From positions 434,001-498,000 of the forward strand of contig CATOTH010000001.1 of assembly GCA_951813065.1 (NCBI GenBank): a DNA stretch of 64,000 nt. The letters run 5' to 3'. Under the pieces are notes generated by a model, which had not been told where the DNA came from, did not search any database, and saw only the letters and a list, made by a program, of their open reading frames with translations. The position numbers and the translations under genes were made by a program. This document shows positions 1,699 through 46,306 of the stretch, piece by piece. Source of the stretch: an uncultured Bryobacterales bacterium (GTDB lineage Bacteria; Acidobacteriota; Terriglobia; Bryobacterales; UBA6623). Within the stretch, counting starts at the first letter, position 1. The number at the start of each line of letters is the position of its first letter.

Positions 1699-4052
1699 GC
1701 GCCTCGACATTTGGTTCCGGCATCCGCCGAAGGGAAGACCCGCGCCTGATCACGGGCAGCGCCACCTACACGGACGACATCAACCTGCACGGCACACTGC
1801 ACGCGGCGATGCTACGTAGTCCATACGCCCATGCCCGGATTGCGGGAATCGACACGTCTCAAGCATCGCAGGCTCCCGGCGTCGTGGCCGTATACACTGC
1901 TGCGGACACGGAGGGGGAACTGGCGCCAGCACCGTGCGCGTGGCTGTTGCCGAACTCCGAACTGAAGATCGCCGACTTCCACTGTCTGGCCAAGGAAACG
2001 GTGCGCTATGTCGGAGACATCGTGGCGGTGGTCGTCGCGGAGTCGCAATACCAGGCATGCGACGCGCTCGACCTGATCGAGGTCGATTACGAGCCTCTCG
2101 ACACGGTCGTCGAGCCTAAGCAGGCAGCCGCAACCAATGCCCCGCAGCTGCACGCAGGGATCGAAGGCAATCAAGCGTTCCACTGGACTGTCACCGGAGG
2201 CGGCGACATCGGAGAAGCGTTCGAGAAGGCGGATGTCGTCGTCAGCGAGACGATTGTCCAGCAGCGCCTGATCCCGAACGCGATGGAACCGCGCGCGGCC
2301 TTGGCGAGCTACAAGCCCGCCACAGGCGAGCTCACCTTGTGGAGCACGACCCAGAATCCGCACATCGTGCGATTCCTTTGCTCGCTGGTCACAAATGTCC
2401 CGGAGGATCGGTTGAGGGTTATCGCCCCGGAGGTGGGAGGCGGATTCGGCAGCAAGATCGCAGTCTACCCGGCCGACTTCATCACGGTCTTCTGCTCCAA
2501 GCGTCTCGGTGTCCCGGTGAAGTGGGTCGAATCGCGCACGGAGAATTACCAAGCCACAACCCACGGAAGGGACCACATCCAAGAGATCGAGCTCGCCGCG
2601 ACAGCTGACGGCAAGATCACCGGAATTCGAGCTACCGTCTGGGCCGGGATGGGCGCCTACCTTTCCACGGCGGCCCCGGGCATCCCGACGATCTTGCACG
2701 GACTGATGCTGTCGGGTGTGTACGACATCCCCGCGATTCATGAAGACGTGTACGGAATCTATACCAACACGACTCCAGTCGAGGCCTATCGCGGAGCCGG
2801 ACGGCCCGAGGCAACTTTCATGCTCGAACGCCTCGTGGACCTGCTCGCAGCCAAGATCGGGGCCGACCCGGCCGAGATCCGCAGGAGGAACTTCATCCCG
2901 AAGTTCGACGACGGCCACGATGTTGTCACCGGCCTGACATACGACAGCGGCGACTACGCCGGCGCGCTCGGCAAGCTGCTGGACGAGGCAGGCTACGCCC
3001 AGTTGCGAGCGGACCAGGCCGCGGCACGCGAGAACGGTCGATACATCGGCCTGGGGCTTTCGACCTATGTCGAGATCTGCGGCCTGGGACCGTCCCAGGT
3101 CGCCGGCGCGATCGGTTTCCAAGGGGGGCTATGGGAAAGCGCGATCCTGCGCTTCCACCCCAGTGGAAAGGTTCACGTGATGATCGGGGCCTCGCCCCAC
3201 GGTCAGGGCGAGGAGACCACGTTCGCCCAGATTGTCGCGGGGGAGCTTGGCGTGTCCCCGGACGACGTCAAGGTCATCCACGGGGACACGGACAACACTC
3301 CGATGGGCTGGGGCACCTATGGAAGCCGGACAACAGCGGTCGGCGGGGCGGCCCTTGCGCTCGCAGCCCGCAAGATCAGGGAAAAGGCGAAGATCATTGC
3401 CGCTCACTTGCTGGAGGCAGCCGTCGAGGACATGGACTACGAGGACGGCAAGTTCTTTGTCAAGGGATCGCCCGACTCGAGCAAGACCATCCAAGACATC
3501 GCGCTCATGGCAAACGTCGCCTGGAACATGCCGGAAGGAGTCGAAGCAGGACTGGAAGCGACTTCGTTCTATGACCCGCCAAACTTCGTGTTCCCCTACG
3601 GTGCGCACCTCGCGGTAGTGGAGATCGATCCGGAAACGGGGCATGTCGAACTGAAGCGGTATGTGGCCGTGGATGACTGCGGCCCCCAGATCAATCCTGT
3701 CATCGTCGAAGGTCAGGTCCACGGCGGTATCGTCCAAGGCATCGGGCAAGCCCTGTGGGAGGAGGCCGTCTACGACGAAGGAGGCCAGCTGCTAACCGGC
3801 TCCATGCTCGACTACGCGATTCCTCGCGCCGACCGCCTTCCGGACATCGAAGTCCACTCAACCGTCACTCCGTCGCCGCACCATCCGCTGGGCGTGAAGG
3901 GCATCGGCGAGGCTGGCACAATCGCTTCTACGGCCGCAGTCTACAACGCAGTCATTGACGCTCTCCAGCCGCTCGGCGTGGAGGGCGTGAGAATGCCACT
4001 GACGCCCGAGCGCGTGTGGCGGTCCATCCAGGACGTACAGGAGAGGAACTGA
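1695..4052 (+). CDS. coxL: Molybdenum hydroxylase large subunit, form II CoxL-like
   Basis: Molybdopterin-cytosine-dinucleotide-binding catalytic subunit, 785 residues. The N-terminus ([15 protein letters not shown]) and the whole length match the aerobic CO dehydrogenase/xanthine dehydrogenase large-subunit family. The active-site loop at residues 364-370 reads AYRGAGR, the form II signature; form I CO dehydrogenases carry AYxCSFR with the copper-binding Cys, which is absent here. The conserved catalytic glutamate is present in the GIGEAG motif (Glu739). Glycine-rich cofactor loops GGGFGSK and GQGEET are also seen. The ATG is preceded by GGAGG. It sits between the small and medium subunit genes. 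The true substrate is unknown; a heterocycle or aldehyde is more likely than CO (inference from the signature and the permease upstream). Confidence 0.92.
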
Positions 4053-4055
4053 GCC

Positions 4056-4925
4056 ATGTACGCACCCGAATTCCAGTACTATCGCGCGGCATCCGTGGCC
4101 GAGGCTGCGGAACTCCTGAGCAAGAATCCTGACGCCAAGATACTCGCGGGCGGACATAGCCTCATTCCAGTGCTCAAACTGCGGCTCGCGGCACCGTCGG
4201 CGCTGATCGACATCGGCCGAATCGAGGTGTTGCGCGGGATCGAATGCAGCTCCGGAACCATCCGCATCGGAGCATTGACGACGCACGCCGAACTGGCCGC
4301 TTCGGCCGAACTGAGAGCCAGAGCCCAAGCGCTCGCGGAAGCAGCCGGAATGATTGGCGACCCGGCAGTCCGCAATCGCGGCACGATAGGGGGCAACGTC
4401 GCCCACGCAGATCCGGCATCCGACCTGCCCCAGGTACTCTCTTGCCTGGGCGCCGAATTCCTAATCACCGGTCCCCAAGGAGAGCGGAGGCTTGGGGCAT
4501 CGGAGTTCTTCGAGGGTCTGATGTCGACGGCGTTGGGCGAGGATGAGATCCTGACCGCCATCGAACTGCCGGAAGCGGGCGCGGGCGAGGGCTCAGCCTA
4601 TGCCAAGTTCGCCCACCCTGCCTCGCGGTACGCCGTCATAGGAGCAGCGGCCAAGGTGGCTGCCAACAACGGGACCTGCACCGCAGCAAGCGTTGTGCTG
4701 GGCGGCCTTTGTCCCGCGCCGGTACGCGCAGAAGCTGTCGAACGGGCACTGGTCGGACGGTCCTTGACCGACGAAGCAATCGGCAGCGCCTCCCGAGCTA
4801 CGGCAGAATCCCTGGACGACGACGAAGTGCTAGGTGACGTATATGCTTCGGCGGGGTATCGCAAAGCGGTTGCGCCCGTCTGGGTCCGGCGCGCTGTGAC
4901 CGCGGCCGCCTCACGGAGCGGCTAG
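4056..4925 (+). CDS. coxM: Molybdenum hydroxylase medium subunit, FAD-binding (CoxM-type)
   Basis: FAD subunit that passes electrons from the iron-sulfur clusters to the final acceptor. The 289 residues carry both flavin-binding motifs of the family: AGGHS at 31-35, followed by LIPVLKLR, and TIGGN at 110-114, followed by VAHADPASDLP. The C-terminal half is the CO-dehydrogenase flavoprotein C-terminal domain. It starts 3 bp after the large-subunit stop, so the three subunits form one transcription unit in S-L-M order. The commonest published cox order is M-S-L, so this is a variant order, frequent among form II-type operons. Confidence 0.92.
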   Translation: MYAPEFQYYRAASVAEAAELLSKNPDAKILAGGHSLIPVLKLRLAAPSALIDIGRIEVLRGIECSSGTIRIGALTTHAELAASAELRARAQALAEAAGMIGDPAVRNRGTIGGNVAHADPASDLPQVLSCLGAEFLITGPQGERRLGASEFFEGLMSTALGEDEILTAIELPEAGAGEGSAYAKFAHPASRYAVIGAAAKVAANNGTCTAASVVLGGLCPAPVRAEAVERALVGRSLTDEAIGSASRATAESLDDDEVLGDVYASAGYRKAVAPVWVRRAVTAAASRSG

Positions 4926-4941
4926 ACAGCGAACCGCGTCC

Positions 4942-5910
4942 ATGAGCGATTCCAAGCCGATTCCCGGCTCCATCGACGAACTGGAGTCGTTACTGGCACG
5001 AGAGGACTATGTGTCCGGTCGCGCCCTGTCGACGGCTTTGTACCTGGCGCTGCGGCTTGGACGGCCCATCCTGCTGGAAGGCGAGGCCGGCGTTGGCAAG
5101 ACAGAGGTGGCCAAGGCTCTTGCCGGATGCCTCGACCGGGACCTGATTCGACTGCAGTGCTATGAAGGGCTGGACATCCATCAAGCAGTGTACGAGTGGA
5201 ATTATGCCCGGCAGGTCCTGGAAATCCACTTGATGCGCGACGGTGGCAATCTGGACCGGACGGCTGCCGCCAAGGAACTCTTCAGGAGGGAGTTCCTCAT
5301 TGAGCGGCCACTGCTGCGTGCACTCGAGCATGACGGGCCAGCCCCTGTGCTGCTGATCGACGAACTTGATCGAGCCGACGAGGAATTCGAAGGGTATTTA
5401 CTCGAGATGCTCTCGGATTTCCAGGTGACGATTCCGGAACTCGGGACGGTCCGCGCACCGCGTCCTCCGATCATCCTCATCACGTCGAACCGAACGCGAG
5501 AGCTTCACGACGCTCTCAAGCGACGGTGCGTATACTGCTGGATCGACTATCCTGATTTCGAGAAAGAGCTCCGGATTGTCGAAACCAAGGTCCCGGGAGC
5601 AGGCCGAGCTCTCAGCGAGCAGGCCACCGCATTCGTCCAGGAACTGAGGCAGGCGGACCTGTACAAGAAGGCGGGCGTTTCGGAAACTCTGGACTGGGTC
5701 ACAGCCCTCGTGGCACTCAACGACAACCGCGTCACCCCGGAACGAATCGATCAGACGCTAGGGCTCCTTCTGAAGAACCAGGAAGATATCCACACCGTCC
5801 GCGGGGATCCAGTAAGGGCGATGCTGGACCGGGCCCAAAATCGGGGCGTTCGGACCAGCTACGCGGGTCAAGAGCCTGCCAACAAATGGGCCACCTCCTC
5901 GAAAACCTGA
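4942..5910 (+). CDS. coxD: MoxR/CoxD-type AAA+ ATPase
   Basis: AAA+ ATPase of the MoxR group, 322 residues. Walker A GEAGVGKTE lies at 47-55 and Walker B VLLIDELD at 136-143; sensor-like TSNRTRELHDALKRRC follows. In the CO dehydrogenase system of Afipia (Oligotropha) carboxidovorans the homologue CoxD is needed for maturation of the metal centre and works with the VWA protein CoxE. Its position right behind the three subunits and its 25-bp overlap with the next gene, which encodes a VWA protein, support the same chaperone-like pairing. Whether it inserts sulfur or otherwise remodels a form II enzyme is not shown by sequence. Confidence 0.85.
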   Translation: MSDSKPIPGSIDELESLLAREDYVSGRALSTALYLALRLGRPILLEGEAGVGKTEVAKALAGCLDRDLIRLQCYEGLDIHQAVYEWNYARQVLEIHLMRDGGNLDRTAAAKELFRREFLIERPLLRALEHDGPAPVLLIDELDRADEEFEGYLLEMLSDFQVTIPELGTVRAPRPPIILITSNRTRELHDALKRRCVYCWIDYPDFEKELRIVETKVPGAGRALSEQATAFVQELRQADLYKKAGVSETLDWVTALVALNDNRVTPERIDQTLGLLLKNQEDIHTVRGDPVRAMLDRAQNRGVRTSYAGQEPANKWATSSKT

Positions 5911-41532: not shown

Positions 41533-41693
41533 GAATGGGAGCGGCTGCCGGGACGCTATTGCCGTATCCCACTGATTGTACCTTGGCCGCCGCCCGCCCC
41601 GGAGGGCGTGGCATGAGCTGACCAGCAGCCCCGAGGCCGTACAGGTGCCCCGCTACACTGGGGCGTGCTGGCCTTCGATTGGCGGCCTTTCGC

Positions 41694-42827
41694 GTGAAGA
41701 TTCTGATTTCGGCTGGCGAGGCTTCAGGAGACCGTTACGCAGCAGGGCTGGTTCGGGCCTTGCGAGCGCGGTTGCCGCAGGCGAGCTTCTTCGGCTGCGG
41801 GGGCCCTTGCCTGCGTGAAGCCGGCGTGGAAGCCGTGGTCCGTTCCGAGGAACTCGCAGTGGTCGGCTTGTTCGAGGTGCTGCGCCACATCCCGCGGATC
41901 CACGGACTCTACCGCCGATTGGATGCGACGGCGAGGGAGGTCCGACCGGACTTGGCGATCCTAACGGACGCCCCGGATTTTCATCTTCGACTGGCGGCCC
42001 GGCTCCGACGGATCGGAGTTCCAGTCGTGTACTACGTCGCTCCGCAGGTCTGGGCTTGGCGCAGCTGGCGAATCCGTCAGATCAGGCGGTTGATAGACCA
42101 GCTCTTGGTGATCTTCCCTTTCGAGAAGGAGTACTTCCGCGAACGCGGCGTCGACGCGGAGTTCGTCGGCCACCCGCTGCGCGACTTGGTACGGATCGAG
42201 ACGCCCAGGGAGGTGTTCTTCGAACAACATGCCCTGGACGCAACCGAGCCGCTCGTGGCTCTGCTCCCGGGAAGCAGGAAAGGCGAAGCAATCCGGCATT
42301 TCCCTGCGCTCCAAGACGCAGTCGCCAGGATGGCAGCGGAAGGGGTGCGCCAGTTCGTGCTGCCTGTAGCGCCGACCACTGGCAGGGAGTTCGTCGCTAG
42401 GCACTGGCAGGGGCCCCCGGTCCGCTTCCTGGAGAACCAAACAGCCGACGGTCTCGGACATGCTGATGTCGCACTGGTGGCAAGCGGTACCGCGACAATC
42501 GAAACGGCGATTCTCGGCACGCCGATGGTCACGTTCTATAAGCTAGCCTGGCCGAGCTACCAATTGGCTCGTCACCTCGTGGACGTGCCCTTCTACAGCA
42601 TGGTCAATATACTCGCGGGGAAGCCCATCATCCCCGAGTTTATGCAGCAAGACTGCACCGGTGCGAAACTAGCCGCCGAGGCGCTACGTCTTGTACGTAT
42701 GGAGACCGCACGATGTCGAATGACGCAACAACTAGTCCAAGTCCGCGAGATGCTCTGCACCCAGGTTCCAGCCTCGGAACGCGCCGCAGAGGCGATCTGC
42801 GATCGATTTGGGCTGCCAGCGCGATGA
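41694..42827 (+). CDS. lpxB: Lipid-A-disaccharide synthase
   Basis: GT19 enzyme that joins UDP-2,3-diacylglucosamine and lipid X in lipid A synthesis at the inner membrane. About 377 residues from GTG 41694, which gives the family start VKILISAGEASGDRYAA; a TTG at 41679 is an alternative. Other signatures: FFGCGGPCLREAGVEAVV, the catalytic-loop FEVLRHIP, VVYYVAPQVWAWRSWRIR, VALLPGSRKGEAIRHFP, ADVALVASGTATIETA and IPEFMQQDCTG. It shows that the organism makes lipid A. No other lpx gene is in the window. The gene overlaps the next one by 4 nt (ATGA). Confidence 0.95.
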   Translation: MKILISAGEASGDRYAAGLVRALRARLPQASFFGCGGPCLREAGVEAVVRSEELAVVGLFEVLRHIPRIHGLYRRLDATAREVRPDLAILTDAPDFHLRLAARLRRIGVPVVYYVAPQVWAWRSWRIRQIRRLIDQLLVIFPFEKEYFRERGVDAEFVGHPLRDLVRIETPREVFFEQHALDATEPLVALLPGSRKGEAIRHFPALQDAVARMAAEGVRQFVLPVAPTTGREFVARHWQGPPVRFLENQTADGLGHADVALVASGTATIETAILGTPMVTFYKLAWPSYQLARHLVDVPFYSMVNILAGKPIIPEFMQQDCTGAKLAAEALRLVRMETARCRMTQQLVQVREMLCTQVPASERAAEAICDRFGLPAR

Positions 42828-44806
42828 GGTTGACCGCCCGAGTCACCTGCCTGCTCGTGTCGGGCGCGGCGCTTGCCTCGCTGCTCGGTCAGGACCTGGT
42901 GTCGGAGCCATTGCTGAATGTCGAGCACTACAAGATCGAAGCGCACATCAACCTTGACGCGCAGTTGATCGAGGCTACCGCAGAGGTCCGTTTCACGCCA
43001 CTCGATCCGGCTGTGACTGCATCGTTTGAACTGCACAACTCGCTCAATGTGGATGCGGCCGAGACAGAGGACGGCATCAGTTTGGAACCCCGCCGCTACC
43101 GCGCGGATTCCACCATCCACCTCAGCTTTCCCGAGACCCTGGCCGTCAATGAACCCCAAGTCATCCGGTTCCGCTACGGAGGCCGCCTGGTCGGATACGA
43201 AGATTCTCCGGCCGAGGGGTACAGCTTGGCCGAGATCACCGCTGATCGCGCGATCCTGCTCTACGCTGGACGCTGGTTCCCTGTCAATGGCTACGGAGCT
43301 GACCGCTACACCTCGGAAATCACTATCACTGTCGAGGAAGGGATGACAGTCCTGGGAAGTGGCCAGGGTAGTCGGACCGAAGCGCTGGAAGGGATCGCGC
43401 ACCGCTTCGAATTCGACTACCCCTCGTTTCCCGGCACCATCGCGGTCGTGCGGGAGGATGCCGTCCAGGTGAATGACGGTGGCGCCTCCAGCAGCGTCTA
43501 CATGCCAACGGCGTCCGAGGACCTGGCCCTGGCCTATGGCGAAGCGGCAGTGGGGATGGTCGATTTCTACTCGGGGCTCTTTGGCGCGCCGTACTCCAAG
43601 GCGATCGCGATTGTCGAGATGGGCGAGTACGCTCCGAGCGGCTACTGGGCTCCGGGCATGGTCTTGATGAGCCCGTACGGCCGCCGGGAGGTCGTGAACC
43701 GCAAGCTCCTCGGGCAGTTAGTGGCACACCAGTGGTGGGGAACGCTCATTGGGGCAGGCAACCGCAACCACCTTTGGCTCGTCGATGGACCGGCGCTGTA
43801 CTCCGCCTTGCTCGAACTGGAGGAAACCGAGGGCGAGGAGGCATTCTCAGACGCACTGGCTGACACCCGCGTCGAGGCGCTTACGTTCGACCAAGTTCCG
43901 CTGCGGGAATCCGGCGAACTCTCGGATTTCTCTCCCCAAATGCACGCCCTGACCTCAGCCCGGGGCGCGATGGTCCTGCACATGCTGCGATGGGGCATCG
44001 GAGACGAGGCGTTCTTCGGCGCGCTGAAGAAAATGATCGGCGAGCTGACCTGGAGCACGATGACGACGGACGGTTTCCGCGAAATCGTGGAAGAGGGCTC
44101 CGGCTTGGATCTGGACAGCTTCTTCCTGCAATGGACTGAATCCAACCTGACGCCGGAGTTCCAGCAGGAATACACGATCTACCGCTTGGGTGGAAACTCG
44201 GGGTTTCGCGTGATCGGCAAGATCAACCAAGACATGGACACGTTCAAGATGCCGGTCGAACTCAAGGTGGAGACAGAGGGCGAACCGGAGTTCCATGTGG
44301 TCGAAGTGGCCGGCACGGCTTCGGACTTTACCGTCGAGACGTTCGGAAAGCCCCGCGAAGTCATCTTGGATCCTAACCACAGGATCCTGCGACTGGACGA
44401 CGACACCAGGGTCCGGGTCGCGATCCGAAGGGGTGAGCAGTTGGTCGAGCTCGGCTACTACCAGGACGCTCTGATCGAGTACCAGCGGGCGCTGGACATC
44501 AATAAGTTCAGCTCGTTCGCACACTACAGGACGGGAGAGGTGTTCTTCCTTCAGAGCAACTTCCAGTCAGCCGCCAACGAGTTCCGGGAGGCCCTCAACG
44601 GCGACCAGGAGCCTCCCTGGGTCGAGGTGTGGTCGCACATCAACCTCGGCAAGATCTTTGACATTACGGGCCAGCGCGAGCGGGCCGTGAATGAATACCA
44701 GCTGGCCATCCGGACGCGCGACAACACGCAGAATGCGCAAGACACAGCCAGCCAGTTCCTGGCGAGCCCTTACCGCAGGCCACGGGCCAAGGAGCGAACC
44801 TATTGA
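42824..44806 (+). CDS. Peptidase M1-like protein lacking the catalytic residues, with C-terminal TPRs
   Basis: 660 residues, signal peptide at about 1-23. The N-terminal beta-domain and thermolysin-like domain follow the M1 aminopeptidase layout. The zinc motif HExxH-x18-E should lie at 298-321, but it reads Gln298-Leu299-Val-Ala-His302, and the third ligand Glu is Asp321 (WLVDG). The spacing and the following QWWG are kept. Two of three zinc ligands are altered and the catalytic Glu is lost, so it is probably a non-enzymatic relative. Residues about 540-640 form TPR-like repeats (YYQDALIEYQRALDI; QSAANEFREAL). Translation is coupled to lpxB by an ATGA overlap. A periplasmic scaffold or envelope-assembly role is a guess from context. 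Confidence 0.75.
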   Translation: MRLTARVTCLLVSGAALASLLGQDLVSEPLLNVEHYKIEAHINLDAQLIEATAEVRFTPLDPAVTASFELHNSLNVDAAETEDGISLEPRRYRADSTIHLSFPETLAVNEPQVIRFRYGGRLVGYEDSPAEGYSLAEITADRAILLYAGRWFPVNGYGADRYTSEITITVEEGMTVLGSGQGSRTEALEGIAHRFEFDYPSFPGTIAVVREDAVQVNDGGASSSVYMPTASEDLALAYGEAAVGMVDFYSGLFGAPYSKAIAIVEMGEYAPSGYWAPGMVLMSPYGRREVVNRKLLGQLVAHQWWGTLIGAGNRNHLWLVDGPALYSALLELEETEGEEAFSDALADTRVEALTFDQVPLRESGELSDFSPQMHALTSARGAMVLHMLRWGIGDEAFFGALKKMIGELTWSTMTTDGFREIVEEGSGLDLDSFFLQWTESNLTPEFQQEYTIYRLGGNSGFRVIGKINQDMDTFKMPVELKVETEGEPEFHVVEVAGTASDFTVETFGKPREVILDPNHRILRLDDDTRVRVAIRRGEQLVELGYYQDALIEYQRALDINKFSSFAHYRTGEVFFLQSNFQSAANEFREALNGDQEPPWVEVWSHINLGKIFDITGQRERAVNEYQLAIRTRDNTQNAQDTASQFLASPYRRPRAKERTY

Positions 44807-44839: not shown

Positions 44840-46306
44840 TCAGTATTTCGGCACGCGGGGGTCGACCTCGTCGCTCCAGCGCAGGATGCCGCCGGCGAGA
44901 TTTGTGACCCGACTGAAGCCCATATCCCTGAGCAACCTCTGTGCCTTGCCGCTACGCACGCCGCTCTTGCAATGAACGACGATATCGGCCGTTGAATCAA
45001 GTTCGTGGACATGCTGGGGCAACGTGCCGAGTGGAATGAGCGTCGTGCCGGGAATTCTGGCTATCTCGAACTCGTGAGGCTCGCGCACATCAAGCACGAA
45101 TAGGTCGTCGCCCGCGTCCAGACGGGCCTTCAGGTCGATCGGCGCAATTTCGGGCAACCGCTCGCGAGCAGCTTCCTCCTGCGCCTGTTGCGGAATGCCG
45201 CAGAACTGCTGGTAGTCGATGAGTTCACGCACAGTCGGATTGTCGCCGCAGACCGGACACTCCGGATTGCGGCGGAGACGCAACTCGCGAAATCGCATGT
45301 TCAGTGCGTCGTACAGCAGGAGGCGCCCGCTCAGCGAGTCCCCCTTGCCGAGGACGATCTTGACGGCTTCCGTCGCTTGGATGCTTCCGATCACTGCCGG
45401 AAGGATGCCCAGCACTCCGCCCTCTGCGCAACTGGGCACCAAGCCGGGCGGAGGGGGCTCGGGATAGAGGCATCGATAGCAAGGCCCGCCCTGATGGTGG
45501 AAGACGGTGGCCTGCCCCTCGAATCGGAATATCGACCCGTACGCGTTCGGCTTGCCGAGCAGTACGCAAGCGTCGTTGACCAGGTAGCGGGTGGGGAAGT
45601 TGTCCGTGCCGTCGACCACGACATCATACGTCGAAATGATCTCGAGCGCGTTCTCGCTGGTTAGCGCCACTTCGTACTTGTCGATGGCAAGACGGGGGTT
45701 GATGTCCTGCATGGTTTCGGCGGCGGAGTCGATCTTCGACCGCCCCACGTCCTTTGAACCGTGGATCACCTGGCGCTGAAGATTCGTTTCGTCGACGATG
45801 TCGAAATCCACGATCCCGATCCGGCCGATCCCGGCTGCCGCCAGGTACAAACCCAAGGGGGCGCCCAGCCCGCCGGTGCCAACCATGAGGATCTTGGCCC
45901 CCTTGAGCCTGCGCTGCCCGGCAAGCCCAACCTCCGGCAGGATCAAGTGACGGCTGAATCGCAGGATTTCCGCATTCGACAGCTCAGGCAGCTCGGTCCC
46001 GGAAACGCCAACCGGAACTGCCGCTGCAGCAGCCGAGCCGCCTGCAATCGAGGGCACGATGCTGATCGTGCTGGCGCTCTTCAGCGCAGTGTCCTCCCGG
46101 TCCAGGTAGCGGATGTCCTCGTCATCGACGTAGATGTTCACGAAGCTGCGGAGCCGGCCCTGCTCGTTGAACAGATTCCGCTCGACCTGGGGATGCGCTG
46201 CCACCAGCTGGCGAAGGGCCTCCCCCACGGTCGCCGCGTCCACATCAACCGTGTCGTTGCCTGCGACAAACTGGCGCAGGGGCGTTGGAATCAGGATGCT
46301 CGCCAT
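44840..46306 (-). CDS. Fused sulfur carrier (MoaD/ThiS-like)-E1 (MoeB/ThiF)-rhodanese protein
   Basis: 488 residues with three recognisable parts. Residues 1-90 are a ubiquitin-like sulfur carrier ending IAGG (Gly89-Gly90). Residues about 110-365 are an E1-type adenylyltransferase: VGTGGLGAPLG (142-152), IGIVDFDIVDETNLQRQ, and two zinc Cys pairs (CYRC, CPVC). Residues about 385-488 are a rhodanese domain with active-site Cys446 in HCKSGVRSG. E1-rhodanese fusions (MoeZ/UBA4 type) are known to adenylate and thiocarboxylate a separate carrier. Here the carrier is attached, and its Gly-Gly is internal, followed by an Ala-rich linker. It could feed molybdopterin, thiazole or cysteine synthesis; a molybdenum enzyme operon and thiE are both in the window. 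Confidence 0.88.
   Translation of the reverse strand: MASILIPTPLRQFVAGNDTVDVDAATVGEALRQLVAAHPQVERNLFNEQGRLRSFVNIYVDDEDIRYLDREDTALKSASTISIVPSIAGGSAAAAAVPVGVSGTELPELSNAEILRFSRHLILPEVGLAGQRRLKGAKILMVGTGGLGAPLGLYLAAAGIGRIGIVDFDIVDETNLQRQVIHGSKDVGRSKIDSAAETMQDINPRLAIDKYEVALTSENALEIISTYDVVVDGTDNFPTRYLVNDACVLLGKPNAYGSIFRFEGQATVFHHQGGPCYRCLYPEPPPPGLVPSCAEGGVLGILPAVIGSIQATEAVKIVLGKGDSLSGRLLLYDALNMRFRELRLRRNPECPVCGDNPTVRELIDYQQFCGIPQQAQEEAARERLPEIAPIDLKARLDAGDDLFVLDVREPHEFEIARIPGTTLIPLGTLPQHVHELDSTADIVVHCKSGVRSGKAQRLLRDMGFSRVTNLAGGILRWSDEVDPRVPKY

Follow-up and report, generated by a model that had tools for sequence, protein, structure and literature searches.

A conserved M1-like pseudopeptidase with C-terminal TPRs encoded beside lpxB in Acidobacteriota

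The lpxB locus and the predicted protein

The window, by which we mean the whole stretch of DNA analysed here, comprises 64,000 nucleotides from an uncultured Bryobacterales bacterium (contig CATOTH010000001.1, positions 434,001 to 498,000, assembly GCA_951813065.1). It carries lpxB, followed on the same strand by a gene for an M1-like protein with C-terminal TPRs (Table 1), and the stop codon of the former and the ATG of the latter share the letters ATGA at 42824-42827. Frame and length of the second open reading frame were as given in a preliminary description of this locus. Further on, a single open reading frame at 44840-46306 on the minus strand fuses a ThiS, a ThiF, and a rhodanese domain; its ThiS part ends in IAGG, which lies inside the chain, so that the di-glycine could become a free end only after cleavage.

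Table 1. Features of the lpxB locus, with positions counted from the first nucleotide of the window
Feature	Position	Strand	Evidence
lpxB, lipid-A-disaccharide synthase	41679..42827	+	PF02684, 313.7 bits; TIGR00215, 265.7 bits (cut-off 190)
M1-like pseudopeptidase with C-terminal TPRs, 660 aa	42824..44806	+	Pfam, AF2 model, PDB fold matches
Hydrophobic N-terminal stretch, likely Sec signal peptide, residues 1-28	42824..42907	+	Sequence; similar start in nearly all orthologues; low pLDDT outside domain
M1 domain I, N-terminal beta domain, residues 31-230	42914..43513	+	Model secondary structure; Peptidase_M1_N scored in orthologues L076 and L093
M1 domain II, former catalytic domain, residues 231-440	43514..44143	+	PF01433 match
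QLVAH where HExxH is expected, residues 298-302	43715..43729	+	Sequence, family alignment
D321, replacing the third zinc ligand Glu	43784..43786	+	Sequence, family alignment
S378, replacing the M1 catalytic Tyr	43955..43957	+	Family alignment against intact paralogues
M1 domain III, beta-sandwich, residues 441-525	44144..44398	+	Model; region well conserved
TPR module in place of M1 domain IV, residues 526-650	44399..44773	+	TPR_2; model helices 526-647; lowest mean column entropy

Pfam matched residues 300-437 of the window protein to Peptidase_M1 (PF01433) with 43 bits against a cut-off of 27.7, and TPR_2 was also matched, with its best stretch at residues 533-560. An AlphaFold2 model computed from an alignment of 63 orthologues reached a pLDDT of 90.7 and a pTM of 0.87, and its top fold matches in the PDB were the IRAP/ERAP aminopeptidases (E about 1e-32, TMq 0.59-0.65). 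An M1 fold with the arrangement of domains I-III is thereby predicted with confidence, followed by TPR helices, and the structure prediction that had been called for thus bears out the earlier claim that the fold was kept while the site was lost. For L179, an orthologue in which the zinc site is intact, prediction from the single sequence gave a model that was unusable (pLDDT 38.6). Judging from its N-terminal stretch, the window protein is likely exported to the periplasm.

In the family alignment, the columns of QLVAH-x18-D coincide with those of HExxH-x18-E in intact M1 paralogues, as the preliminary description had it when it placed QLxxH-x18-D, with the spacing intact, at residues 298-302 and 321. 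H302 is the one ligand-type residue that remains. The GxMEN motif is absent in this alignment as well, and GYWAPGM stands in its place. Lacking the HExxH-x18-E zinc site by which an active M1 peptidase is recognised, the window protein is well supported as non-catalytic. Three other M1 genes are found in the same genome, all of them with an intact HExxH-x18-E, and the window protein is therefore the exception in its genome.

Loss of the zinc site across orthologues

The zinc site is broken in 247 of 251 unique orthologues, and all four residues of HExxH-x18-E are found only in L179, L308, L311, and L312, which are all linked to lpxB and are 38-46% identical. To the question raised beforehand, whether the loss is shared by homologues, the answer is that it is near-universal but not one event, since the intact members do not group together in the tree. 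When the catalytic columns were masked for tree building, these four stood at three separate places, namely in family f95, in family f91, and beside family f90, each adjoining broken sisters; the four sites of the sisters read HEQE beside HEHE in f95, YANA and LERD in f91, and NEHV beside L179. A constraint that united all broken sequences in one clade was rejected by the AU test with a p-AU of 5e-57, the tested group having been defined after the data had been seen, and one ancestral loss is thereby rejected on the column-masked tree. The unordered minimum is five state changes, and without regain ten losses are counted, or six if forks with less than 95 support are collapsed; the tree was searched quickly and its branches carry SH-aLRT support alone, so the exact number is soft. 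That the site was lost more than once is firm under this model, and regain of the four residues at three places, possible in principle, is less plausible than loss. The existence of intact, lpxB-linked members implies an active ancestor at the same genomic position, and these four proteins may be peptidases still. In family f93, the four sites take a further form: L276 reads HExxQ-x18-H and its relatives QExxQ-x18-H, possibly a permuted ligand set.

Residues of the framework near the lost site (W304, W318, G322, K380, and G381) are nearly invariant among the 251 orthologues, whereas the five catalytic positions carry between 9 and 15 residue types, and this difference is beyond chance. By column entropy, the TPR module is more conserved than any other part of the protein. 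Pairwise dN/dS values (NG86) within the genus, wider pairs being saturated with dS > 1, range from 0.02 to 0.11 for the whole protein and are likewise low, 0.01 to 0.11, for the former catalytic domain. Strong purifying selection acts on the gene.

Distribution and linkage to lpxB

An orthologue was present in all 100 genomes of an order-level sample of relatives and, with L179 as the query, in 385 of 399 genomes of the class (313 of 317 among the good genomes). Across the phylum, it was detected in 134 of 396 genomes at E 1e-30, compared with 364 of 396 for lpxB itself, from which it follows that lipid A synthesis does not need the orthologue everywhere.

Directly upstream of the orthologue lies lpxB in 222 of the 251 unique cases, and this linkage extends to remote families of about 25-33% identity. 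The two genes overlap in 99 of the 222 linked pairs, and the median gap is +4 with the starts chosen in our analysis. The linkage is missing from family f5, from one deep clade whose four sites read REYQ, and from a few further members. The coupling to lpxB that had been proposed from the window alone therefore holds in part: the ATGA overlap is real here and the linkage is kept across classes, but overlap is seen in fewer than half of the linked pairs, and strict dependence on lpxB is ruled out by the unlinked clade.

A second collection was searched as well, in which a single-protein query found no matches but an alignment query did. Its 80 loci represent the best 80 of 170 relatives; every one belongs to Acidobacteriota (mainly Bryobacterales, Bryobacteraceae, Terriglobia, or Acidobacteria by name), and they come partly from the same genomes as the first collection. 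In 78 of these best 80, the gene immediately upstream, in the same orientation, is lpxB; one of the two unlinked loci lies at a contig edge. Among these loci, no other neighbour comes close to this frequency, and the remaining large neighbour clusters consisted mostly of shadow frames of the two genes, either on the opposite strand or out of frame.

The wider neighbourhood offered some further observations. In 36 of the 80 loci, which are from Bryobacterales and belong to the same best 80 of 170 relatives, a conserved open reading frame of about 264 residues with no Pfam match is found divergent upstream of lpxB, e.g. at 1953-2747 on the minus strand of L167. In the distant loci L068, L070, L081, L086, L088, and L093, mnmA is located directly upstream of lpxB (one cluster, of which the L088 member was confirmed by Pfam), and some distant loci have, ahead of mnmA, a sigma-70-like factor together with a protein of about 270 residues that Pfam did not match. 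A larger lipid A operon beyond lpxB was considered and discarded, as the distant loci hold mnmA and the sigma factor and no other lpx genes.

Candidate roles in the envelope

We propose, with a probability of about one half, that the window protein is a periplasmic, non-catalytic M1-TPR adaptor or chaperone for outer-membrane assembly, which would be co-expressed with lpxB and would derive from an active peptidase whose site was lost recurrently. An envelope role is suggested, at about even odds, by the architecture, by the likely export signal, and by the place of the gene in an operon with lpxB. In such a mechanism, an envelope partner would be the docking site for the TPR module, and a polypeptide client would be bound, uncut, by the former peptidase groove or its beta edges, so that the protein might act as an adaptor or chaperone, most plausibly in the LPS-transport or beta-barrel machinery, with lpxB co-expression matching its supply to lipid A synthesis. 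The ancestor would have been encoded at this same place in the genome and would have combined zinc peptidase activity with a function other than proteolysis; if only the latter was indispensable, the zinc site could have eroded independently in many lineages. The periplasmic scaffold of the preliminary description, whose production would keep pace with lipid A synthesis, is likewise an inference. LpxB works on the cytoplasmic side and the window protein is apparently exported, which makes direct contact between the two unlikely. A bolder version, which we put forward only tentatively and below even odds, is that Acidobacteriota possess an outer-membrane assembly factor of their own, an M1-TPR protein whose gene accompanies lpxB and which was once an active peptidase-chaperone, and that proteolysis was lost on six or more occasions, the chaperone or adaptor function remaining indispensable throughout.

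It was suggested beforehand that close homologues with an intact HExxH would point to recent decay. Four orthologues with the intact motif do exist, and pseudogenisation restricted to the window's lineage would accommodate them; but the relatives read in the genus, family, and order have all lost at least one of the four residues yet keep the reading frame intact, and dN/dS is well below 1. Such strong purifying selection means that this is not recent decay, and with ORF integrity and breadth of occurrence it refutes that explanation, to which we give hardly any credence. It is also improbable that the protein is still an enzyme, be it a peptidase with unorthodox ligands (H302 and D321 with others) or another hydrolase using the old groove. 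The retention of H302 in many orthologues and the HExxQ-x18-H reading of some families, L276 among them, would fit this idea, but in most orthologues position 299, that of the general base, is not Glu and position 378 is not Tyr, and no alternative polar set is fixed at these positions family-wide.

A more serious competitor, though one that we consider rather unlikely, is that the pseudopeptidase, though conserved, serves the periplasm in some way unconnected with LPS or outer-membrane assembly, for instance by binding exported or nutrient peptides or in nutrient sensing; the linkage to lpxB would then be an old operon of convenience. The unlinked clade and family f5 retain the gene without lpxB, and the unrelated mnmA precedes lpxB in distant linked loci, both of which speak for this explanation; against it, the two genes stay paired even where identity falls to about 25-30% and the rest of the neighbourhood is shuffled.

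The adaptor or chaperone proposed above can be set beside several known systems. With the M1 metallopeptidases IRAP, ERAP1/2, and PSA (PF01433), the window protein shares the predicted fold of domains I-III, but it lacks HExxH-x18-E, GxMEN, and the catalytic Tyr, and has TPRs instead of a helical domain IV. TAF2 is probably another dead M1 homologue. LapB (YciM) is a TPR regulator of LPS synthesis, tied to the LPS level; its likeness to the window protein is a generic one of TPRs, as LapB has no M1 domain, and homology was rejected with 14.5 bits for the NCBIfam LapB model against a cut-off of 474. BepA (YfgC) combines, like the window protein, a peptidase fold with C-terminal TPRs and is exported, as the latter probably is; however, BepA belongs to M48 and has an intact zinc site, whereas the window protein belongs to M1 and gave no M48 match in Pfam, and the two peptidase families are unrelated. 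BepA is a periplasmic peptidase-TPR protein that aids LptD maturation through a chaperone-like function distinct from proteolysis, and its TPR contacts LptD and BAM (PMC8423444). LptD is encoded in the same genome as the window protein, in which no M48 protein with detectable TPR was found. BepA is thus a parallel in layout and logic, as far as the analogy reaches, and not a matter of membership; if the bolder version of our proposal is true, the family would repeat, in nature, the separation of chaperone and protease functions known from BepA.

Our literature searches found no description of the window protein. In the parts of a 2024 review of pseudometallopeptidases reached by term search, the sole M1 case is from yeast (PMC11266112), namely Tma108, a non-canonical M1 homologue that is reported to bind nascent chains via its substrate pocket and possibly has a non-enzymatic role. 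In these respects it resembles the window protein as pictured here, from which it differs in being eukaryotic and ribosome-associated and in keeping nearly all active-site residues, and no TPRs are described for it in those parts of PMC11266112. M1 pseudopeptidases are scarcely described, and the present one is bacterial, occurs in nearly all genomes of its class, and is tied by gene order to lipid A synthesis. The repeated natural losses and the few intact members are available for comparison. Acidobacteriota are abundant in soil and little studied, and through this one gene the biogenesis of their outer membrane becomes directly testable.

Besides, the TPR module occurs outside the family. 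At 52-64% identity, it recurs ahead of TonB_C domains at 3929-5350 on the plus strand of L110 and also in L109, L111, and L112; L110, the one scanned with Pfam, has three TonB_C domains after the module. In L108, it forms an open frame of 151 residues with a signal-like start. The occurrence of the module in fusion with TonB_C and as a small secreted protein suggests that the TPR may have an envelope partner of its own.
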